Below, one piece after another: positions 1 to 18,517 of a stretch of DNA of 64,000 nt. A program made the translations under genes and the position numbers. This DNA comes from Thermoplasmatota archaeon (GTDB taxonomy: Archaea; Thermoplasmatota; Thermoplasmata; Thermoplasmatales; Thermoplasmataceae), in assembly GCA_023488885.1 (NCBI GenBank), contig JAMDDH010000002.1, positions 62,001-126,000 of the forward strand, written 5' to 3'. The notes beneath the pieces were generated by a model. The model saw nothing but the letters and a program-made list of their open reading frames with translations, did not search any database and was not told the DNA's origin. Within the stretch, counting starts at the first letter, position 1. Every line of letters begins with the position of its first letter.

Positions 1-516
1 AGACTAGTGACACACTTTTACAATGCAATGAATCCATTTCATCACAGAGAAACTGGGGTGATTGGTTCAGGGATGCTGGATGAACGCATATACATTGAAT
101 TAATATGTGATCTTAAGCATGTTTCCCGGGAAGCCTTGAGGATTGCATTAACCATGAAAACCTTTGACAAGGTGATAACGGTGACTGATTCATCTCCGGC
201 CACTTTATGTCAGGACGGATTTTACAAACTTGGATCGCTTGATGTTGAAAAAAAAGGTGATGAATGCGTTCTCAAAGGGACTGATACCATAGCAGGAAGT
301 GTGGTGACTATGGACAGTGAAATCAGGAACCTCAGAAACCTCGGTTATCCGCTTGAACTTATAATTAAAACTGTCACATCCAATCCGGCAAGATTACTTG
401 GTCTGAAAAACATTGGATTCCTGAAACCGGGATACAATGCAAATGTGGTGCTGTTTGACAGGGAATTGAAGGTGAAATATGTTATTCTGGATGGAGAAGT
501 GCTTGATGTTGCCTAA
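1..516 (+). CDS. nagA: N-acetylglucosamine-6-phosphate deacetylase, C-terminal part (cut by window start)
   Basis: NagA removes the acetyl group from GlcNAc-6-P, giving glucosamine-6-P and acetate in the cytosol. The reading frame is open to the first base, so the N-terminal half lies outside the window. Visible family motifs are THFYNAM followed by an HxxxxG segment (metal and substrate loop), IELICDLKHVS (the usual IxDGxHV region with DG changed to DL), VTDSSPA carrying the catalytic Asp, IAGSVVTMD, and TSNPARLLGL near the end. The final part matches the beta-sandwich lid typical of amidohydrolases. It lies 42 nt upstream of murQ on the same strand, which fits a two-gene unit in which MurQ makes the NagA substrate. 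The family is clear. The DG-to-DL change should be checked against relatives. Confidence 0.88.
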   Translation, partial: RLVTHFYNAMNPFHHRETGVIGSGMLDERIYIELICDLKHVSREALRIALTMKTFDKVITVTDSSPATLCQDGFYKLGSLDVEKKGDECVLKGTDTIAGSVVTMDSEIRNLRNLGYPLELIIKTVTSNPARLLGLKNIGFLKPGYNANVVLFDRELKVKYVILDGEVLDVA

Positions 517-558
517 GTTTGACGGGCGCTCCCGGGTAGATGTGCTGAGGCTGAAAAT

Positions 559-1401
559 TTGACCGGGGAAATAAAGAGGACAGAGGACAACAATCCAGAC
601 AGCAGAGGAATTGCTGGTAAGAATGTCCGGAATATTCTGGAAATTATCCACGCAGAAGACTACAATGCATTTCGGGCCGTAGATGACGCAATGGATCAAT
701 TATCAGTCGCGGTCACGGAAACACACAAAAGACTGGTATTAGGTGGCAGGGTGTTTTACGTAGGTGCCGGCACCAGTGGAAGACTGGCTGCCCAGGATGC
801 TGTAGAACTTGAACCAACATACGGTATCGGAAACGATATGTTTGATTTTATAATGGCAGGCGGTAATAATGCACTCATACGCTCTGTTGAGGGCGCAGAA
901 GATGATACTGATTCCTCAAAGGAAGAATTGAAAAAGCGAAACCTTTGTAAACTTGACACTGTTGTGGGGATATCAGCATCGGGAAGAACCCCATTTGTCC
1001 TAGGTGCTATTGAATACGGAAGAGAGACAGGTGCGCTGACTATCGGTATCGTGAACAATACTGGCTCAATAATCTGCAAAAGATCGGAGATTTGCATTCT
1101 TCTGGAAACCGGGCCGGAAGTGATACAGGGCTCTACGAGGATGAAAGCAGGCACCTCCCAGAAAATAGTATTAAATGCCTACAGCACTGCTCTCGCTATC
1201 CTTCTTGGCAAGACTTATGACAACATCATGTCGCATATGGGCGTGAAATATAATACAAAGCTCAAACAGAGGGCAGTTAACATTCTGATCTCAGAGTTCA
1301 AAATAGGGGCGACAGAGGCTGAAGCATTACTGGTCAAGAATAATTACCGGCTTGACAGAATAATAAATGGCTTGAGGAACGGTGAGGAATCCGGGAAATA
1401 A
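559..1401 (+). CDS. murQ: N-acetylmuramic acid 6-phosphate etherase
   Basis: MurQ cleaves the lactyl ether of MurNAc-6-P to give GlcNAc-6-P and D-lactate, a step needed only to use bacterial peptidoglycan sugar. The 280-residue protein is close to the E. coli length of about 298. A SIS fold is shown by YVGAGTSGRLAAQDAVELEPT (split here as YVGAGTSGR and AVELEPTYG, residues 68-89), SVEGAEDD (109-116), GISASGRTP (137-145) and GSTRMKAGTSQK (191-202). Glu83 and Glu114 fall at the positions of the E. coli catalytic glutamates. The start is TTG at 559, since no ATG or GTG lies nearby in frame. It follows nagA and converges on the AmiE-like gene. An archaeon without murein has no obvious use for it except salvage. 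Confidence 0.93.
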   Translation: MTGEIKRTEDNNPDSRGIAGKNVRNILEIIHAEDYNAFRAVDDAMDQLSVAVTETHKRLVLGGRVFYVGAGTSGRLAAQDAVELEPTYGIGNDMFDFIMAGGNNALIRSVEGAEDDTDSSKEELKKRNLCKLDTVVGISASGRTPFVLGAIEYGRETGALTIGIVNNTGSIICKRSEICILLETGPEVIQGSTRMKAGTSQKIVLNAYSTALAILLGKTYDNIMSHMGVKYNTKLKQRAVNILISEFKIGATEAEALLVKNNYRLDRIINGLRNGEESGK

Positions 1402-1412
1402 ATGGGGTATAT

Positions 1413-2504
1413 CTACAGTTTTTCGTTGAGGAGATCGTGAAAGATCCTGTTGTGTATTATTCTCCTGAATCTGAGTATTTTCAGGTTATCTCTTGTGGGA
1501 TATACTCTGTTTGTAAGGATGATGACCATGATTTCAGTGACCGGATCTATACATACAGAAGTTCCAGTGAAGCCAGTATGTCCATATACTCCAAATGGGG
1601 CGTAATCTCCTACGAATTTCGCATATCCGAAATCCGGGCTGATGATATTTTGTCTGGGAAGATTAATCATCCATCCGAGTCCAAACATACCTCCAATGTA
1701 TTCGTTTGCAGGTCTTGTGGCCATTTCCAGGGTTGTTTTTGAAATGATGCGGCCCGAGACGTAACTCAGGTAAAAATTATGAAGATCATTCAGGTTCGAG
1801 AATAACCCGGCGTGTCCTGCCACCCCTCCCAGATAATATGAGTTCTCATCGTGTACTTTCCCCCATAATAATCCACGATCAGCTGTTACCTCTGTCGGAG
1901 CAATCTCTTTCCTGTCAAAGTCAGGTTGGAATCCCGTAGTTCTGAGATTCAGGGGAGCAGAAATGTATTCCGCAAAAAGTTCCCGTAATGTTTTTCCGCT
2001 AATTCGCTCCAGGAGAAAGCCCAGCAGAATGAAATTCAAGTCACTGTAGTTCTCTTCCGAATAAATTTTCTCAGGCTTGCAGACCTGTTCCATGGCAGTC
2101 AGGTACTTATCCTGTGTTTTTCCCGTTTCGTACATAGGTATGTGAGGCAGAAAACCAGAAGTATGCGTCAGAAGTGATTTCACAGTCAACTTTTCGATGT
2201 TGGTGTATCCTCTAAACACGCCATAGGTCTCAAGGGGGTCTTCAAGGGCTATTTTTCCGGTTTCCAGAAACTTAAGGGCAAGAGTTGCGGTAGATGTTGG
2301 TTTTGTCAGAGATGCAAGATCATAGATTGTTTCATTTGTATAGACAAAAGCCAAATCCCCTATCTTCCCCACAGAATTCTTATAGAGTATCTTCTTCCCC
2401 TTCGCAACGAGGACGCTCATGCCATGTGATACCTGTGGAACGGCCCCGGCTATTAACTCATCAAGATTCTTTTTGAAATTTCCCAGGAAGTCATCATCTA
2501 TCAC
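1413..2504 (-). CDS. AmiE/EstB-like serine hydrolase of the class C beta-lactamase fold
   Basis: The 363-residue protein has the three motifs of penicillin-recognising serine hydrolases: SLTK with Ser65 and Lys68, YSD at 153-155, and HTG at 309-311 in the HTGFTG form. LLTHTSG (111-117) and VAGHAGLFS (228-236) are also typical. Bacillus YbbE/AmiE, encoded beside nagZ, namZ and murQ, belongs to this family and splits MurNAc from L-Ala; other members are D,D-peptidases or esterases. No signal peptide is visible, so it should act in the cytosol. The start is GTG at 2504. It converges with murQ (11 nt apart) and is transcribed divergently from the CocE-like gene. Family membership is sure. Amidase function rests on the neighbourhood and is an inference. 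Confidence 0.82.
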   Translation of the reverse strand: MIDDDFLGNFKKNLDELIAGAVPQVSHGMSVLVAKGKKILYKNSVGKIGDLAFVYTNETIYDLASLTKPTSTATLALKFLETGKIALEDPLETYGVFRGYTNIEKLTVKSLLTHTSGFLPHIPMYETGKTQDKYLTAMEQVCKPEKIYSEENYSDLNFILLGFLLERISGKTLRELFAEYISAPLNLRTTGFQPDFDRKEIAPTEVTADRGLLWGKVHDENSYYLGGVAGHAGLFSNLNDLHNFYLSYVSGRIISKTTLEMATRPANEYIGGMFGLGWMINLPRQNIISPDFGYAKFVGDYAPFGVYGHTGFTGTSVCIDPVTEIMVIILTNRVYPTRDNLKILRFRRIIHNRIFHDLLNEKL

Positions 2505-2616
2505 GCTTCACCAGTTCCTGCGCGTTGATAAGTTCAAATCCTATTAATTTTGGTCTCGATCACCTTGGTCCTTGAACTGAATAAAATAATTATCCTTCCG
2601 GCGATTGTTGACTCCA

Positions 2617-4305
2617 ATGTCTTCATATCCAGTCAGCAACGATAATGTAAGTTGGGGTGCCAGCATTCCGATGAGGGACGGTGTGAATCTGTCATGTGAT
2701 ATCTTCTTCCCTGAACAATCTGGAAAGTTTCAAACTGTATTATTACGTACTCCGTACGGAAAGGGAACAGATGAAATCTATAAGGTTGCTTCCTATTTTT
2801 CGAAAAAAGGTTTTGTGTTTGTTGCTTGCGATGTAAGGGGGAGAGGTGATTCTGAAGGTATTTTCACTCCGTACTTAAGCGAAGCAAGAGACGGATATGA
2901 TGCGATAGAATGGTGTGCAAGGCAAAAGTGGTCCAACGGAAAAGTGATCACACGGGGAGCTTCATATTCGGCCAGGATACAATGGCTCACTGCGCTAACG
3001 AAGCCTCCGCATCTTGCGGCAATGATCAGCACGGTGTCACCATCCGATCCTTTCGTTGAGGACCCTACGTGCATACCAAGTCCCCTTGTGATCTCGTGGC
3101 TTTTCCTGATTTCTGGAAGGATGCTCCAGAACATTAAGAATGTGAACTGGGAGAAAATTTACTGGCATCTGCCTTTGAAGGACATTTCCAGACTCACAGG
3201 AAGAGAAATCCCATTCTGGGATGAATATTTCAAGTACAGGCCCAATGATAAATTCTGGGACCAGCTCAGATATCAGGGGAGATTCAATGAAATAGATGTC
3301 CCTGTACTGCATGTATCGGGCTGGTACGACGATGAGCAGATAGGGACTCCTCTGAATTTTGCTGGAATGAGAAATAATGCTCCGTCGGAAAAGGCAAGAA
3401 TGTCTCAGAGACTTTTAATGGGGCCCTGGCCACACAATGTCAACTCAGCACAAAAACTCGGAGACATTGATTTCGGTCCGGATTCTGTTATCGATCTCCA
3501 AGGTTATGAGGTTGAATGGTTAAATCTAGTGCTTTCGGAAACGGCGACCGATAAGCACATTGAAGATCCTGTAAGGATATTTGTAATGGGCTCAAATGTT
3601 TGGAAAACCTTCAGTGAATGGCCCCCGAAATCAGTCTCTTACAACAGCCTTTATCTTAGCTGTAAAGGTTCCGCAAATAGTAGGTTTGGATCCGGTGTGC
3701 TTATACCAACGGTTCCTGAATACTCAAGCCGATTTGATTCATACGTTTACGACCCGGCTAATCCGGCTCTATTCATAGCTGATGAGAATTTTGCCCAGAT
3801 CGGTGGACCAGACGACTATTCTTCAATAGAAAGGCGAGACGATATTCTTGTCTACAGTACTGGAAAATTATCCTCAGATGTTGAGGTCATCGGGCCCGTA
3901 AGGGCAGACCTTTATGTGTCATCTTCCGCAGTTGACACAGACTTTACGGCTAAATTGCTTGATGTGTGGCCAAACGGGTACGCTCAGAGGTTGTGTGACG
4001 GAATAGTCCGGATGAGGTACAGAGACGGGTATATGGATGAAAAGTATATCGTTCCAGGTAAAATATATCGTGTGACAGTTGATTTATGGAACACCTCGAA
4101 CCTGTTCAGGACAAACCACAGTATTCGAATCGAAGTATCGTCCAGTGCATTTCCGAAGTACGCAAGGAACCTTAACATCCGCGGGAATCCGGGAGAACTG
4201 GAATCATGGGAAACGGCCGTGCAAAAAGTATTTCATGGATCGAGCAATCCTTCCAGGATCATTCTTCCCACCGTTGGATCTCTGGATGGCAGGTTTGAAT
4301 CCTGA
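2617..4305 (+). CDS. CocE/NonD (S15-type) alpha/beta hydrolase
   Basis: This is a hydrolase of the X-Pro dipeptidyl-peptidase/CocE class, about 562 residues, acting on N-terminal dipeptides, amino-acid esters or amides in known members. An N-terminal alpha/beta-hydrolase domain carries DVRGRGDSEG, the nucleophile elbow GASYS (Ser116 from the ATG at 2617), SGWYDD (Asp238 or the next Asp) and GPWPH (His273). A cap region and a C-terminal jelly-roll (about residues 350-562) follow. The ATG at 2617 is preferred over the TTG at 2605 because an A/T-rich box (2583-2595) lies about 27 nt upstream. No signal peptide is seen. It lies between the amidase-like gene and nagZ, so a role in trimming stem peptides is possible. 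The substrate cannot be told from sequence. Confidence 0.8.
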   Translation: MSSYPVSNDNVSWGASIPMRDGVNLSCDIFFPEQSGKFQTVLLRTPYGKGTDEIYKVASYFSKKGFVFVACDVRGRGDSEGIFTPYLSEARDGYDAIEWCARQKWSNGKVITRGASYSARIQWLTALTKPPHLAAMISTVSPSDPFVEDPTCIPSPLVISWLFLISGRMLQNIKNVNWEKIYWHLPLKDISRLTGREIPFWDEYFKYRPNDKFWDQLRYQGRFNEIDVPVLHVSGWYDDEQIGTPLNFAGMRNNAPSEKARMSQRLLMGPWPHNVNSAQKLGDIDFGPDSVIDLQGYEVEWLNLVLSETATDKHIEDPVRIFVMGSNVWKTFSEWPPKSVSYNSLYLSCKGSANSRFGSGVLIPTVPEYSSRFDSYVYDPANPALFIADENFAQIGGPDDYSSIERRDDILVYSTGKLSSDVEVIGPVRADLYVSSSAVDTDFTAKLLDVWPNGYAQRLCDGIVRMRYRDGYMDEKYIVPGKIYRVTVDLWNTSNLFRTNHSIRIEVSSSAFPKYARNLNIRGNPGELESWETAVQKVFHGSSNPSRIILPTVGSLDGRFES

Positions 4306-4315
4306 CACGAACTAA

Positions 4316-4324
4316 TTTATATGC
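4316..4324 (+). promoter_or_regulatory. TATA-like box of nagZ
   Basis: The sequence TTTATATG is centred about 25 nt before the nagZ ATG at 4345 with no Shine-Dalgarno sequence between. This is the spacing expected for a leaderless archaeal transcript, and it gives nagZ its own promoter apart from the upstream hydrolase. Confidence 0.6.
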
Positions 4325-4344
4325 TTTAAATCTAATCACTCTCG

Positions 4345-5745
4345 ATGCGGTCAGGGTTTTTCATACAGACAGGAATAAGGGGTGTTGAAAGGAATCAGGC
4401 CTTGAAAATAATTTCATCCATGCTACCGTCTTCAATCGTATTATTCAAAAGCGATTTCAACAATGAAGCTGAGTTGCAGGGACTCATAAAGGATATCCAG
4501 AAGTTATATGCAATCGAGAAAGGAATAGCTCCTCCTGTTTTCGCCATAGACCAGGAGGGTGGAAACGTTGTAAGGATACCATGGCTGAATTATAACCCAA
4601 GTAATTATTTCCTCGGGCAGGTTAATAACGAAAAACTTACAAATTATATCGGACTTGTCACCGGGAACGATCTTTACCGACTTGGAATAAGATGGAATCT
4701 GGCTCCGGTGCTGGACATACTCAACAATTATAATCAGGTTCTTCTCGAAAGAAGCTTCGGTGAAGATGTTGAAACCGTTGCAGTAAACGGGGCGGCGTAT
4801 ATTTCAGGACTACAGAATCAGGGTGTCGCTGCAACTGCAAAGCATTTTCCGGGCCACGGTGGAGTCCTTGAGGACTCGCATCAGACCTTGCCAAGAGATA
4901 AAAGGTCCATGAACGCATTGCTTAACGATGCCTTTCCATTCAAGGCTGCAATAAAGGCAGGGGTAAGGGCAGTAATGCTTTCTCACGTACTGTATGAAGA
5001 ACTGGACCCCGATAATCCTGCTACATTGTCACAGAAAGCATACGATTTACTGAGAAAAACGTTCCAGTTCAACGGGCTCGTGATAACCGATTCTGTTGAC
5101 ATGAAAGCAGTATCCCAGAACTATTCAACGACGGAAATTGTTTCAAAATCAGTAGGGCTTGAAGCGGATCTGATAGAGTGTGCTGATCTTCAGACATCGA
5201 TTGAACTAAGCGATTCTATACAAGGCATCGATAGCGACAAATTGAAGAAAAAAATCGAAAGAATTTCATCATTCCTCCCGGAAAAAAAGGTTAAGTTCAA
5301 GCCTCCAAGTGAAGTTCTCCAGTCATTTTCAATCATCTCAAACAGGGCATTTAGACAGATCTACATTGATCCCGGCAAACATTTTTATGTTGTGTTGCTG
5401 GATAATACGATTGAAAGCCAGGTCGCGGAGGAACATTCAATAGCCAGCATATTGGCAAAAAGTCTGAAGGAAAACTACTTCGACTTTACGCTAATGGATG
5501 CAGCCGCCTTCAGGGGATTCAACATTTACGGGATACAGATGATTATCGTGGGTCGAAATGAGCACCTTAAAGACAGGATTTCATCAATTACCGAGAAATG
5601 CGGACAAAACAGGTGTGTCTTCATCTCCACAAGTATATCAAAGGATACCGGAATCATTCCGGAAAATATTGGATATATCGCCGCCTATTCAAGCAAGCCT
5701 GAGAATGTCCTTGGGGCTATCTACAGGGCTATGAAGTTCTTCTGA
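4345..5745 (+). CDS. nagZ: beta-N-acetylhexosaminidase (GH3, NagZ type)
   Basis: NagZ removes GlcNAc from the non-reducing end of muropeptides. Motifs of the GH3 hexosaminidase branch are AIDQEGG (67-73), the RSFGED block (136-141), KHFPGHGG (166-173), DSH (177-179, the Asp-His catalytic dyad of NagZ), MLSHVLY (211-217) and ITDSVDM with the nucleophile Asp249. The protein has 466 residues. It exceeds the one-domain proteobacterial NagZ (about 340) by a C-terminal part (about 340-466) of unclear function. It starts without a signal peptide, unlike the secreted Bacillus enzyme, so it should act in the cytosol on imported fragments. It converges with the GNAT gene. Confidence 0.92.
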   Translation: MRSGFFIQTGIRGVERNQALKIISSMLPSSIVLFKSDFNNEAELQGLIKDIQKLYAIEKGIAPPVFAIDQEGGNVVRIPWLNYNPSNYFLGQVNNEKLTNYIGLVTGNDLYRLGIRWNLAPVLDILNNYNQVLLERSFGEDVETVAVNGAAYISGLQNQGVAATAKHFPGHGGVLEDSHQTLPRDKRSMNALLNDAFPFKAAIKAGVRAVMLSHVLYEELDPDNPATLSQKAYDLLRKTFQFNGLVITDSVDMKAVSQNYSTTEIVSKSVGLEADLIECADLQTSIELSDSIQGIDSDKLKKKIERISSFLPEKKVKFKPPSEVLQSFSIISNRAFRQIYIDPGKHFYVVLLDNTIESQVAEEHSIASILAKSLKENYFDFTLMDAAAFRGFNIYGIQMIIVGRNEHLKDRISSITEKCGQNRCVFISTSISKDTGIIPENIGYIAAYSSKPENVLGAIYRAMKFF

Positions 5746-5815: not shown

Positions 5816-6682
5816 TTAGGGAATAAGGCCTGTATTATGATCGGTGAATATTGCCATTGATTCGCTCCTGAATCCCAGGTTTTCGTATAGGCTCTTCGCT
5901 GTGGAATTATCTGACCTTACAAACAGGGACGCATAAGAAGAGAATTTAGCAAGATCTTTCAGGATTCTCCTTATTACGTCGCTAGCATATCCTTTTCCCC
6001 TGTGTTCCCGGGAAGTAAAAAATGCTCCCACTGTTGAAATATCACTATTAATGGACATAATTGCGCCTCTGGAAACAAGCAAGCCGTCGTGAAGGATGCC
6101 GTAAACCAAACGTTCGTTAATAAATCTGGCTTCCCTGGCCAGTACTTCCGCATCAGCAGGTCTCTCCGAATATCCTGCCAGATTGAGTGATCCTTCAGCG
6201 TTGTTCCTGTCAAGTTTCAGGACTCTCTGATCCGTGCTGGTGATTTCCGGAGTATGGTCAAGTTTATTCAACATAAGGTTCTCGCGAAAATGTATCGAAT
6301 CTGGAAAAGCTATTTTCAGGTCTTCTTCAAGTTTAAACGGAGCCTGAATGGTAATCTTCTCATATTTTATGGAACGTAAAAGGGCAGGGGCAGATTCTTC
6401 AGAACCGGTGATCCAGGCTAGCGGATCATGCCATATGTGCGGGTTATAGCCGGAATGGAAGATAATGAGACATCCGGAAATTGAATCATCCTCTCGGACA
6501 ACGAAGGTTTCACATCTTTCGGGAAAAGTAGTCACCGCGTGGATCATGTTAGCAGTGAATGGCAGTTGTGAAGAGAGATATGGATATAATTTCTTCCCAT
6601 ATTCCCCAACGAGCCTTTCAACCATATTTCTATCCGTCACTATTATACTTCCTTCCGAAAACTTTTTCGCACTCCGGCGCAA
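5816..6682 (-). CDS. GNAT-family N-acetyltransferase
   Basis: A protein of up to 288 residues whose C-terminal half (about 170-285) is a GNAT domain. It shows the acetyl-CoA loop SREHRGKGYASDV near residues 223-235, and LYENLGF near the end. The N-terminal half has no motif I recognise, so it may be a FR47-like two-domain acetyltransferase. The start is uncertain: TTG at 6682 has no visible ribosome-binding site, while GTG at 6640 lies 7 nt after a GAAGGAAG stretch. It lies just downstream of the epimerase gene (42 nt gap) within the muropeptide cluster and may be co-transcribed with it. An acceptor such as an amino sugar, amino acid or small peptide is a guess. Confidence 0.75.
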   Translation of the reverse strand: MRRSAKKFSEGSIIVTDRNMVERLVGEYGKKLYPYLSSQLPFTANMIHAVTTFPERCETFVVREDDSISGCLIIFHSGYNPHIWHDPLAWITGSEESAPALLRSIKYEKITIQAPFKLEEDLKIAFPDSIHFRENLMLNKLDHTPEITSTDQRVLKLDRNNAEGSLNLAGYSERPADAEVLAREARFINERLVYGILHDGLLVSRGAIMSINSDISTVGAFFTSREHRGKGYASDVIRRILKDLAKFSSYASLFVRSDNSTAKSLYENLGFRSESMAIFTDHNTGLIP

Positions 6683-6723: not shown

Positions 6724-7791
6724 CTAGGAATATTCTTTTTTCAGGGTCACTCCGAGACCCGCATCTTCATTTGAGGATATGTATCCCTTCCTCAGTTCAA
6801 TTCCTTTTTCAGCAATATCTTTTATTATGCTGCTGTAGCCGTCGAGATCAGTATATTTCACGCCTTTCTTGGCCAATGCAACGACGAGACCCGCTGTATT
6901 GGACAGTCTTGTTTCAATCATGCACCCAATCATCACAGGAGCCCTGAAAGATTCAGCAGTGTTCACCATCTTTACGGAATCAGTTATTCCGCCGGACTTC
7001 ATGAGCTTTATATTGATGCCGTCTGCAGCCTCCATGCTCAGGATAGTAGACACATCTTCAGGGGTAAATATGGCTTCATCCGCCACAACAGGTATTGCGG
7101 TATTGTTTCGAACGAACCTGAGGGCTTTAAGGTCGTTTGCAGGAACAGGTTGTTCCAGGAATTCAATTTCATAGGTTTCCAGTTTGCGCGCAATTTCCAC
7201 AGTTTTCTTTGCAGTGTAAGCCTGGTTAAAGTCCACGTAAACCATCTTCTCCGGTCCGATTACCTCCCTGACCGCCTTGACTCTTTCAAGATCTTCCTTA
7301 ATTCCAGAACCCATTTTTATCTTGAAAACCTGTATGCCTGAATCCAGCAATTCCTTTGCCTGATGCTTTGCTGAATTTCGATCAACAAGGTCAACGGTGT
7401 ACGATGTAAGAATATTATTCCTGTAACCCCCAAGAATTTTCTTCAGGCTAATCCCTGAACGTTTTCCGATTATATCCCATATGGCAGTATCTACTGCATT
7501 TCTGCTGGCTTTAGCGGATTTCATGAGGCTTTTCATTTTCTCATTGATCAATTCCGGGCTTTCATCCATCTTGACAAGGTTTTTTGAAAAAACATTCAGT
7601 TCATGTTCTATAGAACCCATGGTATCGCCGGTTATGAACGGAGTCGGTGTTGCCTCTCCATAACCCACGAATCCATCATCAGAAACTACCTTCACCAAGA
7701 AACCTTCATAAGCATCCGTTGAGCCAAGGGAAATCTTAAAGGGCTTTTTCATCTGGAGTTCCAGTTTTGTGTACGAGATAGACTCAATCAC
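6724..7791 (-). CDS. Enolase-superfamily epimerase, L-Ala-D/L-Glu epimerase type
   Basis: This 355-residue protein is of the muconate-lactonizing subgroup of the enolase superfamily. It has the two-lysine active site of dipeptide epimerases: KIK (Lys157 and Lys159) on one side and NIKLMKSGG (Lys262) on the other. Metal ligands are Asp187 (VDFNQ), Glu213 (EQP) and Asp238 (ADE). The ADE and NIKLMK-GG signature matches L-Ala-D/L-Glu epimerases such as YkfB and YcjG, which convert L-Ala-D-Glu from murein stems to L-Ala-L-Glu for normal peptidases. The start is GTG at 7791, with an AATTATTTAT box about 24 nt upstream. Dipeptide epimerases with other specificities exist, so the substrate relies partly on the surrounding murein genes. 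Confidence 0.85.
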   Translation of the reverse strand: MIESISYTKLELQMKKPFKISLGSTDAYEGFLVKVVSDDGFVGYGEATPTPFITGDTMGSIEHELNVFSKNLVKMDESPELINEKMKSLMKSAKASRNAVDTAIWDIIGKRSGISLKKILGGYRNNILTSYTVDLVDRNSAKHQAKELLDSGIQVFKIKMGSGIKEDLERVKAVREVIGPEKMVYVDFNQAYTAKKTVEIARKLETYEIEFLEQPVPANDLKALRFVRNNTAIPVVADEAIFTPEDVSTILSMEAADGINIKLMKSGGITDSVKMVNTAESFRAPVMIGCMIETRLSNTAGLVVALAKKGVKYTDLDGYSSIIKDIAEKGIELRKGYISSNEDAGLGVTLKKEYS

Positions 7792-7877: not shown

Positions 7878-8972
7878 TTAGCGATACAGCAGAAAATTCT
7901 CCCTTCTTTCCCGGAATGACTGGAGATCATCCTGCCATGAATTTATAATATCCTGGACGGACGCCTCATCCTCAATCATGGAAACAAGTTTGTTGGATCC
8001 GTACAGCAAGCCAAGCCATCTTTCATTTATCTCAATCTTGCCGTAATTATAAGCCTCAATCATCGTTTCAATTGCAAATTTCAGAGGGTTGTAGGAACCC
8101 CTATCCGTTATGTGCAGGTAGTAACCCTTGACTCTCTGGTTCTTAAAAGGTTCCAGCAATGGTGTGAACTCAGTTCTCCTGAGTGTGAGGCCATCTGCTC
8201 CTTTGAGTTTCATATCCCAAAGAAATGGTGACCCGATCTGGAGAAAAGGGTAGGGAGTTCCTCTTCCAAGACTCATGTTAATCCCTTCCAGCATACACAT
8301 TCCCGAATAGTTTATGGTAGCATTCATGGATGGGAGATTCAGAGACATTGGTATATAATGGGACATAAGGTCATCAAGGTAGGTATTCCTGTTGTAACCA
8401 CTCATCTCAACAACCTTTACATCTGAACCAATTTCTTCGTCAAAAAGTCTGGAAAGCTCGCCTATTGTCATCCCGTATCTGGTCGGTATCTCCTTTATGC
8501 CGATAAAGGATGAAAATTCCCTGAGGAGAACTGGGCCGTCCACGATATCAGATCGAATAGGATTGGGTCGATCAAGCACCACTAGCCTGCCCTTATGTGG
8601 TTTTATGGTTGCCATTACCTTATAAAGGGTAGAAATGTAGGTGTAGTGTCTTACCCCTGCGTCCTGTACATCGAAAATAATGGTGTCGAAATCTTCGAAT
8701 AAAGACCTGTCAGGATCATGAGTATCGGATTTATACAGTGATTTAACTGGAATATGGTTGTAGGTTTCGTCCGGGACTATCTCACCGTTATTGTATGTTC
8801 CATAGAAACCGTGTTCAAGTGAAAAAATGCAATTTAATTTCACGTTCTTCCGCGTAATGTAATCTATATTCTGTTCAATGCTGCTGGTAACTCCGGTCGC
8901 ATTTGTAATTATCCCTACTGAGCCTTCGAGTTCATCTCTTCGTATGTTATCAATTCCAAGCCGGAAAACCAT
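7878..8972 (-). CDS. namZ: Exo-beta-N-acetylmuramidase NamZ (DUF1343, GH171)
   Basis: NamZ releases MurNAc from the non-reducing end of peptidoglycan chains. The 364-residue protein has the full DUF1343 signature: IITNATGV (21-28), SLEHGFYG (51-58), FDVQDAGVRHYTYI (from residue 100), VLDRPNP (132-138), RYGMTIGEL (165-173) and the SLNLPSMNATINYSGMCMLE/GRGTPYPF region (about 205-240). Bacterial NamZ proteins usually carry a signal peptide; this one begins directly with the first strand and should be cytosolic. A TTATAAG box (8992-8998) lies about 23 nt upstream of the ATG. It lies between the kinase gene (upstream, same strand) and the epimerase gene, so sugar release and sugar phosphorylation are encoded side by side. 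Confidence 0.92.
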   Translation of the reverse strand: MVFRLGIDNIRRDELEGSVGIITNATGVTSSIEQNIDYITRKNVKLNCIFSLEHGFYGTYNNGEIVPDETYNHIPVKSLYKSDTHDPDRSLFEDFDTIIFDVQDAGVRHYTYISTLYKVMATIKPHKGRLVVLDRPNPIRSDIVDGPVLLREFSSFIGIKEIPTRYGMTIGELSRLFDEEIGSDVKVVEMSGYNRNTYLDDLMSHYIPMSLNLPSMNATINYSGMCMLEGINMSLGRGTPYPFLQIGSPFLWDMKLKGADGLTLRRTEFTPLLEPFKNQRVKGYYLHITDRGSYNPLKFAIETMIEAYNYGKIEINERWLGLLYGSNKLVSMIEDEASVQDIINSWQDDLQSFRERRENFLLYR

Positions 8973-10111: not shown

Positions 10112-10287
10112 TCTTAATGGGAGCCTAATAGGAATTAAAAATTTAATGCAGGGAGGCAACTCGCCATATATCCAGATCAGGGTAAACATACTACAACAAT
10201 AGGATAATGCATAAGAAATCAAGTTTCTGCATATTCATTTATTGTTCAGGTATACTCCTGTCAAAAGTATCCACAATTGGAATGTTG

Positions 10288-10378: not shown

Positions 10379-10397
10379 ATAACTCATTAGTTTGTCA

Positions 10398-12197
10398 ATG
10401 GTTAGCACTAACCGTAAAATTTTAATCATGAGCGTCGCTGCATTTCTATTTGTAGTGAACTTTGGGGCACTGGCACAAGGGTCCAACACAGCAACACCAA
10501 GTGGGGAATTTATTTTTGGAACCCCTGTTTCAACTTCAGTCAGTGACCTCAATCCGCTCACTGTATCGAACAGCTTAGCTACTATTATAGATCAGGAGAC
10601 GTACGCCAACTCCCTCGGATTTCAGTGGGCTGACGGAACATTCACTCCCTGGCTTGCCAGTTCCTGGTCTATAACATACAGCGGAACCTCAGAGAACATT
10701 ACTTACCACCTGAACCCCAACGCTGATTGGGTACAGGGAAGCAATGTTGTTGGTCAAATCACCGGAAAAGATGTTGCATATACATTCAAGGCAATTCTTG
10801 GCAACAGTTCACTAGACGGGTACAATCTGGCTTCACACCTCACAAGTGTTACATCTTGGGACAACAACAGTGCAGTTTCATTCAACTTCAACTCAACCAG
10901 TGCACTCTGGTTCACATACGTTACATCACAGGTAATCATTCCGTCATCCTGGAGCCAGTATGATAATGGAACACCAGGTAACATTGGAAGCTACCTTAAC
11001 ATGGGACCTTATGCTAAGGAAATAACTGCCGGGCCATTCACACTCTCCAACATATCATCACAGGGCGCAATCCTTGTTGCCAATACACATTTCTGGATGG
11101 GCACACCACACATCGAAACCTTCTATGTTGAAAAGTTCCAATCTACCTCTTCAGCAGTTCTATCATTGGAGGACGGTTCAATTGCTGGTACTTTCCCTGC
11201 ACTAAGTGATTACAACGCACTTAAGGGAACTACAAACATAACAAATGTAAACCAAGCAGAACCTTGGACTTTCTACCTCTGGATGAACGACACACTTCCG
11301 ACATTCGCGAACTACCACTTCAGACAGGGTCTCGCCTATGCAATAAACAAGACACAGATCATGCAGAAGGCTGAGGATGGCCTTGGCTCATGGGGATCCA
11401 ACTTCTCATTCGGTGGCTTGCCAACAGTGATGAAATCACAGTGGGCACCAAACCTGACCCAGTACTCGTTCAATAACACAAAGGCTCTACACCAGTTTGA
11501 ACTTGCAGGATACCACCAGAACATAACTTCGTCTGGGGTTCAGTTAGTTAACAATACAACTAAAAAACAACTCACGTTGACTATCCAGGAACCCCCAGTT
11601 TCTGACTGGCAGGCTGCAGGCACATTCATACAATCAGATCTCAAGGTGCTGGGAATAAATGCTGTATTACTAAGTGTTCCTTTCAGCACATGGGGTGCGG
11701 ACACATTTGGCGCTAACTTTACTACCTTGACCTACTTTGGATATGTCCCAGCGTTCACAAACCCGTACATACAGCTGCAGGCACCATACGATTATAATGG
11801 CGGATTCTGGAATGTTGAGCATTTCTCAAATTCAACATTGAATGGGCTGTTTAACACAACAATTAGCGCGACTGGAACAAACTTTACCAAAGATTTGAAC
11901 CAGATGCAGCAGATTATTGACCAGCAGGTGCCAATAGTACCTATCGGGAATGCAAACAACTTCTATGCATACAACAACAAGATGGTACAGGGTTTCCTTC
12001 CAAATCTGACCATGGACAGCCCATACAATCTGATGCAGATAACCTCCTCTTATACGCCGCCCACAACACCGGCAACTACTTCCAGCAATAACATCCTCTA
12101 TTACCTCGCTGGTGGAGTAGCGGCTGCCATAGTAGTTGGCGGAGTAGTTGGCTACGCTCTTAGAGGAAAAGGAAACAAAGGCAAGGAAGAAAAATAA
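10398..12197 (+). CDS. Peptide ABC transporter substrate-binding protein (SBP family 5), membrane-anchored
   Basis: This 599-residue extracytoplasmic receptor belongs to the Dpp/Opp/Nik family. Residues 1-28 form a signal segment (Lys-Ile-Leu start, hydrophobic core, Ala-rich end). The mature part begins with GEFIFGTP and VSDLNPLT, the usual N-terminal lobe of SBP5 proteins, and contains RQGLAYAINKT (about 305-315), the conserved hinge region. Many Asn-x-Ser/Thr sequons suggest N-glycosylation. A Thr/Ser/Pro linker near residue 555 leads to a C-terminal membrane helix (about 570-588) and a Lys-rich tail, the common archaeal anchor. It is the first gene of the transporter operon; a U-rich stretch follows it. 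Peptide or muropeptide as ligand is inferred from the cluster. Confidence 0.88.
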   Translation: MVSTNRKILIMSVAAFLFVVNFGALAQGSNTATPSGEFIFGTPVSTSVSDLNPLTVSNSLATIIDQETYANSLGFQWADGTFTPWLASSWSITYSGTSENITYHLNPNADWVQGSNVVGQITGKDVAYTFKAILGNSSLDGYNLASHLTSVTSWDNNSAVSFNFNSTSALWFTYVTSQVIIPSSWSQYDNGTPGNIGSYLNMGPYAKEITAGPFTLSNISSQGAILVANTHFWMGTPHIETFYVEKFQSTSSAVLSLEDGSIAGTFPALSDYNALKGTTNITNVNQAEPWTFYLWMNDTLPTFANYHFRQGLAYAINKTQIMQKAEDGLGSWGSNFSFGGLPTVMKSQWAPNLTQYSFNNTKALHQFELAGYHQNITSSGVQLVNNTTKKQLTLTIQEPPVSDWQAAGTFIQSDLKVLGINAVLLSVPFSTWGADTFGANFTTLTYFGYVPAFTNPYIQLQAPYDYNGGFWNVEHFSNSTLNGLFNTTISATGTNFTKDLNQMQQIIDQQVPIVPIGNANNFYAYNNKMVQGFLPNLTMDSPYNLMQITSSYTPPTTPATTSSNNILYYLAGGVAAAIVVGGVVGYALRGKGNKGKEEK

Positions 12198-12247: not shown

Positions 12248-13237
12248 ATGATTACTAGAAAATATCTTGTTACACGGACAAGTTATGCCGTATTGACTTC
12301 CGCAATCGCCCTCGTCATTAATTTTTTATTGCCACGGTTGGTTCCGGGCAATCCCGTCTACACAATCTTACTGACAAAGTATCATTATCTTCCACCTAAC
12401 CAGATTAAACTACTTGAATCAGAATTTGGACTTCAGAACCCGAATCTCCTGTACCAGTTTCAACGTTACATTATTGAGTTGTTCCATGGAAATTTGGGAA
12501 TATCTTATTACTACTTCCCAGCAACAGTCACTAACGTCATAGCAACGCATCTCCCATGGACTTTATTTCTTCTAGGAACGGCGACCGCGATCTCATCCCT
12601 GGTCGGAGTCATTATTGGTAAATACATTGGTTGGCATAGTGGAACTAAGGGGGAAACAGCAATCTCTGCCCTGTTTATGGGCCTCACGTCCATCCCCTTC
12701 TTCTGGATTGCAGTGATCTTTCAGCTGATTTTCGCACTTTATATAACTCATCTTCTTCCGATTTCAGGGGCTTATTCGGTCACATTAGTACCATCCTGGA
12801 ATGTGGCCTTTATTCTAAGCGTCCTCCGACACAGCATATTGCCAATTTTCACACTTGTTCTTGTGTCATTTCCGGGTTTTTCCCTTACTATGCGAAATAC
12901 CATGGTCAACCAGAATAAGGAAGATTACCTCACATTGGCAAAAGCTAAAGGAATTCCCGAAAGGCTTATTGTAAAAAATTACGCGGCACGAAATGCAGTA
13001 TTGCCAGTTGCAACTCATATTGTCCTTGCATTCGGCTATGTTGTGGCCGGTGCGTTCTTTGTGGAAGTTGTTTTCTCATATCCTGGAATCGGTTACGCTC
13101 TTTATGTTGCAGTTACATCCCTGGATTACCCACTTGTGGATGGAATATTTTTGGTGATTACGTTGACAGTCATTATAGCTAATTTTTTTGCAGATATCCT
13201 TTATGCATATCTGGATCCGAGAGTGGAGTTGAAGTAA
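12248..13237 (+). CDS. dppB: Peptide ABC transporter permease (DppB-type)
   Basis: This 329-residue membrane protein has the layout of DppB/OppB. A first helix lies near residues 12-30, with the LVPGNPV motif just after it. A long periplasmic-side loop follows, then about five more helices between residues 100 and 320. The cytoplasmic EAA loop that contacts the ATPase is seen around DYLTLAKAKGIPERLI (about 218-233), followed by NYAARNAVLPVATHI. It is the first of two permease genes, four bases before the second. Together with the following genes it makes one importer. Family assignment is firm; the symbol reflects family, not proven dipeptide specificity. Confidence 0.9.
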   Translation: MITRKYLVTRTSYAVLTSAIALVINFLLPRLVPGNPVYTILLTKYHYLPPNQIKLLESEFGLQNPNLLYQFQRYIIELFHGNLGISYYYFPATVTNVIATHLPWTLFLLGTATAISSLVGVIIGKYIGWHSGTKGETAISALFMGLTSIPFFWIAVIFQLIFALYITHLLPISGAYSVTLVPSWNVAFILSVLRHSILPIFTLVLVSFPGFSLTMRNTMVNQNKEDYLTLAKAKGIPERLIVKNYAARNAVLPVATHIVLAFGYVVAGAFFVEVVFSYPGIGYALYVAVTSLDYPLVDGIFLVITLTVIIANFFADILYAYLDPRVELK

Positions 13238-13241
13238 ACAT

Positions 13242-14141
13242 ATGTTACCTGAAGTAGGACCGTTAGAAACCAAGACACTGAAAACAAAGAGTACAACAGG
13301 AGAGGTTAGTTTCCTACGCGGTGCGCTGGGAAACAAGAAATTCTTTTCCGGGTTCATAATACTCCTGGCCTTCACTACCATTGGCATCATTGGCCCCTTT
13401 ATTGCACCTTATAATCCTTACAATACTAGTTTTCCTAGCTGGTTGCCACCTACATCTGCACACCTGATGGGAACTGACTATATCGGCCACGATGTGTTCA
13501 CATGGTTTGTAATTGGCACTGGTACATCACTTTTTGTCGGAGCGGCAGTTTCCCTTATCACGACATTTCTTGGTACAGCCGCGGGCCTTGTATCGGGATA
13601 TTACAGCGGTATGGTGGACAACATTCTAATGAGAACAGTTGATGTTCTTCTGATCATGCCGACATTTCCTTTACTGGTTATCCTGGCTGTCTATTTGCCA
13701 CCCACTAATACGACGACTATCATCATTCTCGGAGTGCTGTCATGGCCATTCATGTCAAGGGTCATCAGATCCCAGGTGTTGACATTGAAGGAAAGACCGT
13801 TTATAAGTGCAGCTAAATTGTCGGGATATTCCGGCAAGAAAATACTTTTCAGTGAAATTTTCCCACATCTGCTGCCACTGATTGTTATAAATGCGGTATA
13901 TATTGTTGTTGGAGCCATTGTGGCCCAGGCAGGGCTTGCCTTCTTTGGTCTTGGTAACCTTGCTTCAGTGAATTGGGGTACATCTCTCTACTGGGCTCAG
14001 TCGTCTGATGCCATAATTTACAATGCATGGTGGTGGATTATACCCCCCGGTCTGTCTATTGCAATAATAGGTATTGCTGCCAATCTGTTTGGTTCCGGGC
14101 TGAATGAATACGTTGGACAGAGATCAGGTGAAGTGAGATGA
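13242..14141 (+). CDS. dppC: Peptide ABC transporter permease (DppC-type)
   Basis: This second permease of the importer has 299 residues. A hydrophilic N-terminus of about 35 residues precedes the first helix, as in DppC. The segment LMGTDYIGHDVFTWFV (about 76-91) is the usual LGTDxxGRDxxS block of this family, with GRD changed to GHD. The EAA loop is PFISAAKLSGYSGKKIL (about 186-202). Five to six helices are visible. Its stop overlaps the start of the next ATPase gene (ATGA), which points to coupled translation. Pairing with DppB-type protein forms the membrane channel. Confidence 0.9.
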   Translation: MLPEVGPLETKTLKTKSTTGEVSFLRGALGNKKFFSGFIILLAFTTIGIIGPFIAPYNPYNTSFPSWLPPTSAHLMGTDYIGHDVFTWFVIGTGTSLFVGAAVSLITTFLGTAAGLVSGYYSGMVDNILMRTVDVLLIMPTFPLLVILAVYLPPTNTTTIIILGVLSWPFMSRVIRSQVLTLKERPFISAAKLSGYSGKKILFSEIFPHLLPLIVINAVYIVVGAIVAQAGLAFFGLGNLASVNWGTSLYWAQSSDAIIYNAWWWIIPPGLSIAIIGIAANLFGSGLNEYVGQRSGEVR

Positions 14142-15136
14142 GCTTTCCCATCCTTTCAATCAAGAAACTGAATACAGTTTTCCACACACCATCAGGAGAT
14201 GTTATGGCATTGAGAAACCTGAGCCTTGAAGTGAACAAGGGTGAAGTTCTTGCAATTGTTGGAGAATCAGGCTCCGGAAAATCCACATTGGGATTTTCTA
14301 TTCTCAGGTTGATTGAAAACCCTGGCGAAATTATCAGTGGCTCTATTGTCTTCCACAGTCCGGAACGTGATGTCCACATACTTGATCTCAGCCTTCCTCA
14401 ACTCAGAGAATTCAGGTGGGTTAACATCTCAATGATTTTCCAATCTGCCATGAACGTTCTTAATCCCATAGCTAGGATAGAAAAACAGTTTATTGACACA
14501 TTTGAGGCACATAATATAGAAGGAGATTATCAGGAGAGAATCAATAAGTATCTTGAAATTGCAGGGTTAGGTAAGCAGGTAAAGAAAATGTTCCCGCACG
14601 AACTGAGTGGGGGAATGAAACAGAGAGTCAATATTGCCCTGGCATTGTCATGTGAACCATCGATCCTGATTGCAGATGAACCCACAACTGCGCTAGACGT
14701 AGTGGTTCAGAAGGAAATACTCTCTTCAATAATGAGAATTAAGGATGAGCTCAATTTGACCGTTATCTTCATAACTCACGACCTCTCCGTTGCATCTTCA
14801 ATAGCTGACAGGCTTGCTATCTTCTATGCGGGAAGACCTGTGGAAGTAGGTTCTGCTGATAAGATCCTCAGATCTCCTCAGCATCCCTATACTACTTTGC
14901 TTCTCTCTTCAGTTATTTCTCTCAACACCAACAGAGAAGCTTCTCTAAAAACCATGGGGGGATCCCCCCCTGATTTGAAAAAACGAATACCTGGATGCAG
15001 TTTTCTGGAGAGATGTCCAATTGGTGAAGAGGCCTGCTCCACCTACGACCTTTTCCCAGCTAAAGTCCACGGCGATGTTTTTGTGGAATGCATCCATCCA
15101 GGTAAGTTGGAGTTCGAGATGGAGGTAAACAAATGA
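14138..15136 (+). CDS. dppD: Peptide ABC transporter ATPase (DppD-type)
   Basis: This 332-residue nucleotide-binding subunit has Walker A GESGSGKST (42-50), the ABC signature LSGGMKQR (about 156-163) and Walker B ending ADEPTTALD (about 179-187). After the ATPase domain there is the Opp/Dpp C-terminal extension with GCSFLERCP and further cysteines, which in related transporters binds an Fe-S cluster or supports dimer contact. The ATG overlaps the dppC stop by four bases. It is one of two non-identical ATPases of the importer. Confidence 0.92.
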   Translation: MSFPILSIKKLNTVFHTPSGDVMALRNLSLEVNKGEVLAIVGESGSGKSTLGFSILRLIENPGEIISGSIVFHSPERDVHILDLSLPQLREFRWVNISMIFQSAMNVLNPIARIEKQFIDTFEAHNIEGDYQERINKYLEIAGLGKQVKKMFPHELSGGMKQRVNIALALSCEPSILIADEPTTALDVVVQKEILSSIMRIKDELNLTVIFITHDLSVASSIADRLAIFYAGRPVEVGSADKILRSPQHPYTTLLLSSVISLNTNREASLKTMGGSPPDLKKRIPGCSFLERCPIGEEACSTYDLFPAKVHGDVFVECIHPGKLEFEMEVNK

Positions 15137-15162
15137 AGAGAATTCCAGGAAAGGTGAATTAA

Positions 15163-16161
15163 TTGCTCACAGGCAGGAGACTTAAAGAAGAGAAATGGTT
15201 GCCTCCATCCAATGAAATAATCTCATTCCGGAATGTTGACAAGGTTTACAAATCCGGACACACTACGAACTATGCGCTGGACAGCATCAATTTTTCCATC
15301 AAAACAGGAAAGACCCTATCGGTGGTAGGGGAAAGCGGAAGTGGGAAGACAACATTCGGCCTTGCATCATTAGGTCTCATAGAACCAACCCGAGGGAAGA
15401 TATACTTCCAGGGGATAGACATCACATCTCTTGACAGGATCCAAAAGAGGAATTTCAGGTCAAAAACACACATGATTTTTCAGGATCCATATTCTTCCCT
15501 GAATCCCTACAACAACATTTTCACCACTGTCTCAGCTCCAATTGAATCTTTCCAGAAAGGCATGAGCAAAGAGGAAAGACGTAACAAGGCCGCTGAAATG
15601 CTGGATAAAGTGGGGTTATCCCCAGGAGCGGATTTCCTTGACATCTATCCTAAGAGTCTTTCGGGGGGACAGAGACAGAGGGTTGCTATTGCAAGATCAT
15701 TGATAAACAAGCCAGAGTTTGTAGTTGCAGACGAGCCCACGTCAATGCTAGATGTTTCAATAACGTCTACTGTCATCAATCTTATGAAATCCCTTAAGGA
15801 CGAGTTGAATTTCACAATGCTATACATCTCCCACGAGATAGCAACATCGAGGTACATTGGGGATGATATGGCTGTAATGAATCTCGGAAGGATTGTTGAG
15901 TATGGAAGCCCCGAGGAGATCACCAAATCACCAAAGCACCCTTATACCGACCTCCTTATCAGGTCCTATCCAAAGCCTGGACAAAAATTAGTGCCGGGAG
16001 AAACAAGACATGGTGATTACAATGTATACAATGGGGGCATCAAAGGATGCACATTTGCTTACGCCTGTCCTTTCAAGATACCAGAATGTGAAAATACCAA
16101 ACCTGAGCTCAGGGAGATATCACAGGGGCACTGGGTAGCCTGTTTCCATCCCATAAATTAG
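15163..16161 (+). CDS. dppF: Peptide ABC transporter ATPase (DppF-type)
   Basis: This second ATPase of the importer has 332 residues. Walker A is GESGSGKTT (about 55-63), the signature is LSGGQRQR (about 166-173), and Walker B ends ADEPTSMLD (about 190-198). The same C-terminal family extension is present with GCTFAYACPF. The start is TTG at 15163 with a GGTGA stretch about 6 nt upstream; no ATG lies close in frame. It is the last gene of the operon and is followed by a T-rich convergent region. All five parts of a peptide importer are therefore present and intact. Confidence 0.91.
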   Translation: MLTGRRLKEEKWLPPSNEIISFRNVDKVYKSGHTTNYALDSINFSIKTGKTLSVVGESGSGKTTFGLASLGLIEPTRGKIYFQGIDITSLDRIQKRNFRSKTHMIFQDPYSSLNPYNNIFTTVSAPIESFQKGMSKEERRNKAAEMLDKVGLSPGADFLDIYPKSLSGGQRQRVAIARSLINKPEFVVADEPTSMLDVSITSTVINLMKSLKDELNFTMLYISHEIATSRYIGDDMAVMNLGRIVEYGSPEEITKSPKHPYTDLLIRSYPKPGQKLVPGETRHGDYNVYNGGIKGCTFAYACPFKIPECENTKPELREISQGHWVACFHPIN

Positions 16162-16193
16162 GAGAAGGATGACGAGTTTTCACACCCGTCTCC

Positions 16194-16222
16194 AACGTAT
16201 TTTTAGTTTCAGTTTTTCTTTT
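16194..16222. terminator. T-rich region between convergent genes
   Basis: Several T4-T5 runs lie directly after the last transporter gene and overlap the end of the short minus-strand gene. They could end transcription of the importer operon. No stem-loop is needed in archaea. Confidence 0.35.
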
Positions 16223-17604: not shown

Positions 17605-17665
17605 TTGTCTCGAGGAAGAGCCCATTGTCATCCAAAAAAAGTCTCAATCTGTGTCCAAGTAGAAT

Positions 17666-17675
17666 CTTTTAAGAG
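17666..17675 (+). promoter_or_regulatory. TATA-like box of the D-aminopeptidase gene
   Basis: CTTTTAAGAG is centred about 28 nt upstream of ATG 17699. It supports this start over the GTG at 17684. Confidence 0.45.
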
Positions 17676-17698
17676 TTTCATATGTGTTAGGCAAAGGA

Positions 17699-18517
17699 AT
17701 GAAGATACTCATCTCAATTGATGCCGAAGGACTTCAAGGAGTCACATTTGGAAGACAGGTCAAACCAGATACCACGGAATACCAGGTTTTGAAATCAGCA
17801 ATGAACAAGAGTGCGAACGCGGTTATCTCCGGTGCCTTCAAAGGTGGTGCAGATGAAGTTCTGGTAGTGGATGCGCATGACGGCAACAGGAACCTGGATG
17901 TGGAGGAAATAGACTCAAGATCTCAGGTAATTCTCGGTTGGCCCAAAGAATTGAGCATGGTCCAGGGAGTAGAAGGAAAAGATCAGTTGTTCCTTATCGG
18001 GTACCATACCAGGGCTGGTGCACCAAATGGGGTGCTTAGCCATACATATTCAACAAACGTTCACAGGTTAAGAATCAATGGAAAGGAAGTCGGGGAACTG
18101 TGGCTGAGTGCGGCAGTGGCATCAAGTTACGGTGTTCCGGTAACCCTTGTTGCAGGGGACAGTCAGACCATTGAAGAGGCAAAAGAATTCCTGGAAGACT
18201 GTGAATTTGTAACCCTGAAAGAAGGATTTTCAAGATATTCTGCTCGATCGCTGTCCATGAAGGATGCCCTGGGAAAACTAGAGGAAGGTACTCAAAAGGC
18301 CATAAAGAGGAAGGGAAAATTGCTGGAAGTTGATGTTACCCTGACCATTGAGCTGGAATTCCAGAATGCTGCCATGGCGGACAACTGCCTCATTGTTCCA
18401 GGTGTTGAGAGGCTGAACGGATACACATTGAAAGTCACTGCGCAGGATGTAGTAACCGCATACAAGATATTCAGGGTCCTGGTTGCTCTTTCAGATTTTG
18501 ATCACGGAGGGTACTGA
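17699..18517 (+). CDS. dppA: D-aminopeptidase DppA (peptidase family M55)
   Basis: DppA is a zinc peptidase that releases N-terminal D-amino acids such as D-Ala. The 272-residue length matches the Bacillus enzyme (about 274). Metal-site residues are conserved: Asp8 and Glu10 in SIDAEG, His60 in VDAHDG, His103 in IGYHTRAG, and Glu133 in VGELW. The Bacillus nucleophile Cys115 region reads LSHT here, so the catalytic detail may differ. In Bacillus dppA heads the dpp/ykf operon for murein peptides; here it lies 1.5 kb after the peptide importer, separated by decayed genes. No signal peptide is present, so it should work on imported peptides in the cytosol. Confidence 0.9.
   Translation: MKILISIDAEGLQGVTFGRQVKPDTTEYQVLKSAMNKSANAVISGAFKGGADEVLVVDAHDGNRNLDVEEIDSRSQVILGWPKELSMVQGVEGKDQLFLIGYHTRAGAPNGVLSHTYSTNVHRLRINGKEVGELWLSAAVASSYGVPVTLVAGDSQTIEEAKEFLEDCEFVTLKEGFSRYSARSLSMKDALGKLEEGTQKAIKRKGKLLEVDVTLTIELEFQNAAMADNCLIVPGVERLNGYTLKVTAQDVVTAYKIFRVLVALSDFDHGGY

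Follow-up and report, generated by a model that had tools for sequence, protein, structure and literature searches.

The 64,000-nt stretch analysed here (the window; contig 17, positions 62001-126000, of a Thermoplasmataceae genome of 1.86 Mb in 66 contigs, 92.5% complete with 1.2% contamination) holds part of a gene cluster that reads as an island on the chromosome for the catabolism of foreign peptidoglycan (murein): an Opp-type transporter would import intact muropeptides and anhydromuropeptides, and cytosolic enzymes would take them apart. A probability of about 0.86 was assigned to this reading. Genes were called from matches to family profiles (Pfam, and NCBIfam/TIGRFAM equivalogs with their bit-score cut-offs) and from sequence matches to PDB entries. 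Statements about whole genomes rest on family searches, and most of the genomes compared were draft assemblies.

Gene content and predicted breakdown route

The initial annotation had placed a complete-looking salvage system in the first 18.5 kb of the window, comprising NagA, MurQ, an AmiE-type hydrolase, NagZ, NamZ, a BadF-type kinase, an epimerase, the Opp genes and DppA. All of these were recovered by profile match or in the list of open reading frames (ORFs), NagA as its 3' end only. Completeness within the window did not stand, since LysA, an S13 peptidase, Amd6, AnmK, an NlpC/P60 protein and a GlmS-type deaminase lie farther left. In other respects the interpretation of the initial annotation was borne out wherever sequence can test it. 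The 17 kb preceding the window were read and profile-scanned: salvage genes continue for about 7 kb, in the order (towards the window) LysA, S13 peptidase, Amd6, AnmK, NlpC/P60, GlmS-type SIS protein and NagA. On contig 17 the whole cluster runs from about 54.4 to 80.5 kb, a span of some 26-27 kb (Table 1).

The proposed route is as follows. Soluble fragments of bacterial origin (muropeptides and anhydromuropeptides), either shed or set free from the cells, would arrive at the archaeal surface, where membrane-anchored Amd6 may trim them. Uptake of the joined sugar-peptide would fall to the Opp-type ATP-binding cassette (ABC) importer and its family 5 binding protein, as the predicted topology suggests. 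Family membership predicts that, in the cytosol, NagZ takes off N-acetylglucosamine (GlcNAc), NamZ takes off N-acetylmuramic acid (MurNAc) and AmiE separates the peptide from MurNAc. MurNAc-6-phosphate would be formed by the BadF-type kinase and AnmK and converted by MurQ to D-lactate and GlcNAc-6-phosphate; NagA would deacetylate the latter and the GlmS-type deaminase would produce fructose-6-phosphate. On the peptide side, the S13 carboxypeptidase would remove D-Ala and the NlpC/P60 enzyme would cut the bond between gamma-D-Glu and diaminopimelate (DAP); the epimerase would form L-Ala-L-Glu, DppA would handle D-amino-acid dipeptides and LysA would turn DAP into lysine. The predicted end products are fructose-6-phosphate, D-lactate, amino acids and lysine.

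The MurQ, NamZ and AnmK families act on the lactyl ether or on MurNAc. The window MurQ matched the PDB entries for MurQ, 4lzj and 1nri (E 9e-56), and the active-site Glu (E83) and the G(A/S)GTSGR loop were present in 17/17 archaeal copies aligned. The NamZ profile matched PDB 4k05 and 4jja, and AnmK matched PDB AnmK (E 4e-44) and levoglucosan kinase (3e-31). In the NagZ-type GH3 enzyme the KHFPGHG, DSH and TDxxxM motifs were found, and PDB NagZ relatives were matched. The BadF-type kinase matched a PDB N-acetylmuramic acid/N-acetylglucosamine kinase (8zo3, 2e-23). The SxxK/YxN/HxG motifs of the AmiE-type hydrolase occurred in nearly all relatives and its gene often adjoins MurQ or NagZ; because it gave no PDB match at E<=1e-20, its substrate was taken from gene context. 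By analogy it is a candidate MurNAc-L-Ala amidase, although its sequence does not separate AmiE from other members of the fold. Genes of the FAD-oxidase_C family (FAD-linked D-lactate dehydrogenase type) were present in 16/18 tested carriers, in several of them inside or beside the cluster, and these enzymes could oxidise the D-lactate formed as MurQ by-product.

Among the peptide enzymes, the epimerase matched best to a dipeptide epimerase (3jva, 5e-61) and also to L-Ala-D/L-Glu epimerase (1jpm/1tkk, 5e-55). DppA, found in the clusters of the window genome and two relatives only, matched PDB DppA (1hi9, 3e-36) with its metal-ligand motifs retained. The cluster's NlpC/P60 protein matched, among other PDB entries, dipeptidyl-peptidase VI and NlpC/P60 protein 3h41, which we take to be Bacillus YkfC. 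By family, the dppA-ykf stem-peptide set of YkfC-type NlpC/P60, L-Ala-D/L-Glu epimerase and DppA D-aminopeptidase is complete. Motif conservation was scored with regular expressions, which gave some misses in divergent copies: catalytic motifs were retained in relatives for NagA, in most copies of S13, NagZ, AmiE, AnmK and DppA, and in most NlpC proteins.

Table 1. Features of the cluster in contig order (positions refer to the window; > and < compare a bit score with the equivalog cut-off)
Feature	Position	Strand	Basis and remarks
LysA	left of window, outermost		TIGR01048 347>298
S13 D,D-carboxypeptidase	left of window		TIGR00666 108.8>107.8, barely over
Amd6, putative Cys/His hydrolase	left of window, between S13 and AnmK		408 aa; N-terminal signal, C-terminal membrane helix
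AnmK	left of window		PF03702 238 bits, 2e-70
NlpC/P60 endopeptidase with SH3 domain, YkfC type	left of window		
GlmS-type SIS protein, predicted glucosamine-6-phosphate deaminase	left of window, between NlpC/P60 and NagA		
NagA, GlcNAc-6-phosphate deacetylase, 3' part	1..516	+	whole gene L002:16341-17516 = contig 17 61341-62516; TIGR00221 271 bits>226
MurQ, MurNAc-6-phosphate etherase	559..1401	+	NF003915 303>168; NF009222 264>255; TIGR00274 259<302
AmiE-type serine hydrolase, beta-lactamase fold	1413..2504	-	PF00144 166 bits, 2e-48; no signal peptide
S15 CocE/NonD hydrolase	2605..4305	+	TIGR00976 357>66
NagZ-type GH3 beta-N-acetylglucosaminidase	4345..5745	+	PF00933 198 bits, 2.5e-58; NF003740 168<207
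GNAT acetyltransferase	5816..6682	-	PF08445 and PF00583; in or near the cluster of some relatives
L-Ala-D/L-Glu (dipeptide) epimerase, YkfB type	6724..7791	-	MR_MLE N and C
NamZ (DUF1343) exo-beta-N-acetylmuramidase	7878..8972	-	NamZ_N 206 bits, 5e-61; NamZ_C 121 bits, 8.5e-35
BadF-type kinase, MurK-like (putative MurNAc/GlcNAc kinase)	9086..10222	-	PF01869 133 bits, 2e-38
OppA, family 5 solute-binding protein	10392..12197	+	PF00496 6e-39; N-terminal hydrophobic signal
OppB permease	12248..13237	+	ORF list and adjacency; conserved with cluster
OppC permease	13242..14141	+	ORF list and adjacency; conserved with cluster
OppD ATPase	14138..15136	+	NF007010 OppD 264 bits
OppF ATPase	15163..16161	+	conserved with cluster
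DppA-type D-aminopeptidase (M55)	17684..18517	+	PF04951 289 bits, 5e-86
DUF218 protein	18572..19117	+	PF02698 5e-24; within cluster of 12 genomes

Islands of other relatives additionally carry a gene for an S66 LD-carboxypeptidase, an M19 dipeptidase, a NagB-type deaminase or MupG. The S15 CocE/NonD hydrolase is kept within the cluster of 11 genomes; we know of no role of such hydrolases in murein breakdown. A short ORF at 16992-17339 (+) resembles, by eye, a class-II glutamine amidotransferase. Its possible kin are 244-aa proteins with the N-terminus MCRMF (e.g. L065:16716-17450), encoded near the cluster in seven genomes and giving no Pfam match. Together they are possible candidates for an amidase acting on amidated stem peptides.

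Predicted cellular location, putative importer and Amd6

Location was assessed from the simple hydropathy of N-termini in the window genes and their relatives. Among the enzymes and the binding protein, only OppA (2.2-3.0) and Amd6 (2.7-3.5) had signal-like N-termini, and the hydrophobic N-terminus of OppA was found in the window copy and in 10/10 relatives tested; NagZ, NamZ, AmiE, NlpC, S13, AnmK and the kinase had none. NagZ, NamZ, AmiE and NlpC thus look cytosolic, which points to glycosidases acting after import and to disaccharide-peptides being imported whole.

Opp-type genes are present in most clusters and form the sole importer tied to the island. They accompany MurQ in two settings: the main island and separate islands with a second MurQ type (MurQ2-Opp), the latter with MupG in a second family of the class (f14). 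MupG, a 6-phospho-N-acetylmuramidase, normally follows a phosphotransferase system (PTS); in f14 archaea it was seen beside the second MurQ type and Opp (L116:9643-10743, L117:13435-14526, L120, L123). Transport of muropeptides is what we infer for the archaeal Opp proteins, by analogy with Agrobacterium YejBEF-YepA, a peptide-type ABC importer shown by experiment to carry whole (anhydro)muropeptides (PMC9790009); unlike in that system, the archaeal transporter genes are separate and lie inside the island.

The strongest candidate for a murein-active enzyme at the cell surface is Amd6. Its invariant stretches are SEDC(A/S)HFVS and GH; matches below threshold were obtained to Amidase_6 in 9/9 members (best 0.0015) and to NLPC_P60 in 6/9, and the second half gave PKD/Ig-like matches in some members. 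Carriers outside the genus share 58-72% identity over the catalytic part, compared with about 50% for MurQ. AlphaFold models of Amd6 were of low confidence (mean predicted local distance difference test values of 52 and 46), too poor to test the fold. The only Amd6 genome without MurQ (G081) has Amd6 adjoining Opp and NlpC genes. A segment of the window at 16209-16520 (-) matches the last 65 residues of Amd6 (E 1.4e-9) and looks like a decayed Amd6 paralogue; another Amd6 fragment was seen beside the Opp genes of a same-genus relative (G082).

Chromosomal setting, conservation and rival explanations

The cluster is part of an archaeal chromosome, with archaeal housekeeping genes on both sides, as the initial annotation had concluded for the host. 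LysA ends 55 bp from an archaeal EF-2 gene, which marks the left border. The left flank carries elongation factors EF-1a and aEF-2 (1126>738), and the right flank carries FEN1, RadB, an archaeal nicotinamide mononucleotide adenylyltransferase and SMC_prok_A; archaeal or matching equivalog cut-offs were passed on both sides. Left of the elongation factor genes, an ORF (L002:568-1992, -) has an RRXRR-like start and an HNH nuclease motif, and is of IscB type by eye.

The proposed comparison of MurQ, NamZ and gene order in relatives was carried out on 117 genomes of the order, with MurQ carriers counted over the MurQ cut-off. MurQ was found in 22/117 genomes, NamZ in 21/117 and both in 20 (p = 3e-19, with genomes counted without correction for kinship). 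NamZ (20/21), AnmK (11/11) and Amd6 (14/15) co-occur almost perfectly with MurQ. When the cluster proteins were mapped onto 20-kb stretches of relatives, about 20 other genomes of the order had the same gene set close together but reshuffled; two of these genomes are on single contigs (18/20 genes in G074, 13/20 in G048). The island is also present in f14, and MurQ in two further families of the phylum.

In a quick tree, the MurQ proteins of the order formed one clade (SH-like approximate likelihood ratio test, SH-aLRT, 100), distinct from the bacterial sequences sampled and weakly joined (81) to the main f14 copy. The second MurQ type, which f14 shares with two genomes of the order, was placed elsewhere among bacterial sequences, as were the MurQ copies of families f51 and f68. 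The tree had been proposed as a way to find the bacterial donor; a single donor was not recovered, as no clear bacterial sister group appeared. On the basis of MurQ distribution and tree placement, the history is read as an old acquisition, followed by loss from most lineages and by one or more further transfers. In G113 and G053 (L032, L033, L070) a second, f14-like MurQ lies directly behind Opp genes and would represent a transfer separate from the main island.

Several points weigh against the salvage reading. The BadF-type kinase scored higher against hexokinase 2e2n (5e-29) than against 8zo3; its sugar specificity is not decidable from sequence and the MurNAc assignment is putative. Equivalog cut-offs were missed by MurQ (TIGR00274), NagZ (NF003740; both in Table 1), AnmK (NF007148, 310<387), DppA (NF058634, 187<430) and the epimerase (NF041118, 210<500), as would be expected of distant archaeal forms; the GlmS/GlmD-type SIS protein likewise did not reach the GlmD and NagB-II cut-offs. 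The specificity of the Opp importer is drawn from analogy. GH25 and SLT were not found in 18 carrier genomes, other glycan-cleaving families not having been searched. No dedicated extracellular glycan-cleaving enzyme was thus found, and fragment release by GH25 or SLT enzymes is not supported; the soluble fragments may instead come from bacterial shedding, Amd6 or enzymes of other families.

The best-surviving rival holds that the system is primarily antibacterial or defensive, with Amd6 attacking bacteria and the remainder disposing of the products. In its favour, Amd6 shows high conservation, a tie to the cluster and a predicted exposed, membrane-anchored position, and bacteria-killing archaeal murein hydrolases are known (PMC12352652). 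However, the bulk of the island appears to be cytosolic catabolism plus an importer, and Amd6 was not detected in 8/22 MurQ genomes, so this explanation was considered unlikely as the primary function. The antibacterial and feeding roles are compatible with each other.

Recruitment of the enzymes for another amino-sugar polymer (chitin, the organism's own glycoprotein glycans or pseudomurein-like material) was considered quite improbable. GlcNAc derived from chitin or glycans would likewise be a substrate for a route through NagZ, NagA, the deaminase and the BadF-type kinase, the GH3 enzyme has its best PDB match in a GH3 beta-N-acetylglucosaminidase, and the kinase resembles hexokinase; against this stand the established specificity of the MurQ, NamZ and AnmK families, the fit of the epimerase, NlpC/P60, S13 and LysA to the murein stem peptide, and the clustering and co-occurrence of the murein-type genes with MurQ, catalytic motifs retained.

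MurB is needed to make MurNAc. The MurB_C domain was searched for in the 117 genomes and was absent from 116, including every MurQ carrier, in agreement with the initial statement that the host does not make MurNAc; the sole hit (G024:C127:2674-2970, L208), in a 260-contig assembly without MurQ, is probably contamination. Bacterial recycling pathways employ the same enzymes, but an archaeal murein-like polymer, built and recycled by its maker, is scarcely credible with MurB_C missing and with a predicted pathway that ends in catabolic NagB-type and LysA steps. As far as family searches go, recycling into an own wall is excluded, and catabolism is the remaining use. One report (PMC12448462) describes the Thermoplasmatales as lacking a paracrystalline S-layer, and membership of this group suggests that the host is wall-less.

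A bacterial contaminant joined to the archaeal contig by assembly error, the doubt raised at the outset, would account for the bacterial type of all cluster enzymes and for a codon usage slightly off that of the flanking genes (relative synonymous codon usage r 0.92, below all 200 random splits; GC at third codon positions 0.44 vs 0.48), but it is excluded because archaeal housekeeping genes flank the cluster, which equals the rest of the window in GC and recurs, shuffled, in relatives across genera and in a second family, two copies being on single contigs, with the MurQ of the order in a clade of its own.

Comparison with known systems and biological meaning

The enzyme families are all known from bacteria, and the island appears to follow the logic of bacterial muropeptide salvage. 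Bacillus exports NagZ and NamZ and takes up MurNAc via a PTS. The island shares with the B. subtilis murQ-amiE-nagZ-namZ and dppABCDE-ykfABCD loci the MurQ, AmiE-type, NagZ, NamZ and DppA families, a YkfB-type epimerase, a YkfC-type NlpC/P60 protein and a dipeptide-type ABC importer. The Bacillus-like combination first proposed therefore stood for the enzyme families; the Bacillus layout did not, since the archaeal glycosidases and AmiE look cytosolic, a BadF kinase stands in for the PTS, AnmK and Amd6 are extra, and no murein is made by the host. Clostridium acetobutylicum has a MurK/MurQ/NagZ/AmiE muropeptide pathway with cytosolic processing. With this pathway the island shares a BadF-type MurNAc/GlcNAc kinase (by the 8zo3 match) and the predicted cytosolic processing of imported fragments; it differs in joining NamZ, AnmK and the stem-peptide enzymes in one island and in serving, as the lack of MurNAc synthesis indicates, nutrition and not recycling. 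Because the glycosidases and AmiE look cytosolic, the archaeal layout appears nearer to the Clostridium type, combined with the dpp/ykf peptide part.

The archaeal peptidoglycan hydrolases described so far, Woldo and Danwoldo of Halogranum and GH25 of Aciduliprofundum (PMC12352652, PMC12356512), are likewise archaeal enzymes aimed at bacterial murein, but they are secreted killers, whereas the present system is predicted to be intracellular salvage. The former were found by a search requiring murein-binding domains (PMC12352652); the text of that report mentions no MurQ, NagZ, muropeptide or recycling, and describes no intracellular salvage. In line with the initial annotation, which knew of none, no precedent for archaeal muropeptide salvage was found among the open-access papers searched.

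The island points to archaea feeding on the walls of bacteria around them, as the initial annotation had inferred. Turnover of peptidoglycan, a vast store of carbon and nitrogen, is usually ascribed to bacteria and to eukaryotic hosts. If archaea unable to make murein possess a salvage route that is complete and conserved, the two domains would be joined by a trophic link not recognised before. More tentatively, and with the odds somewhat against it, a Thermoplasmata lineage may long ago have inherited a complete murein-feeding system and coupled it to its own conserved surface hydrolase, Amd6, which would open bacterial walls, making its members consumers or predators of bacteria. Are bacteria rivals or food? 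The finding bears on this question, raised in a 2025 paper on archaeal murein hydrolases whose authors ask whether bacteria are the resource (PMC12352652). If the salvage reading is true, carriers should import muropeptides, yield D-lactate and lysine from them, and track bacterial necromass in communities.

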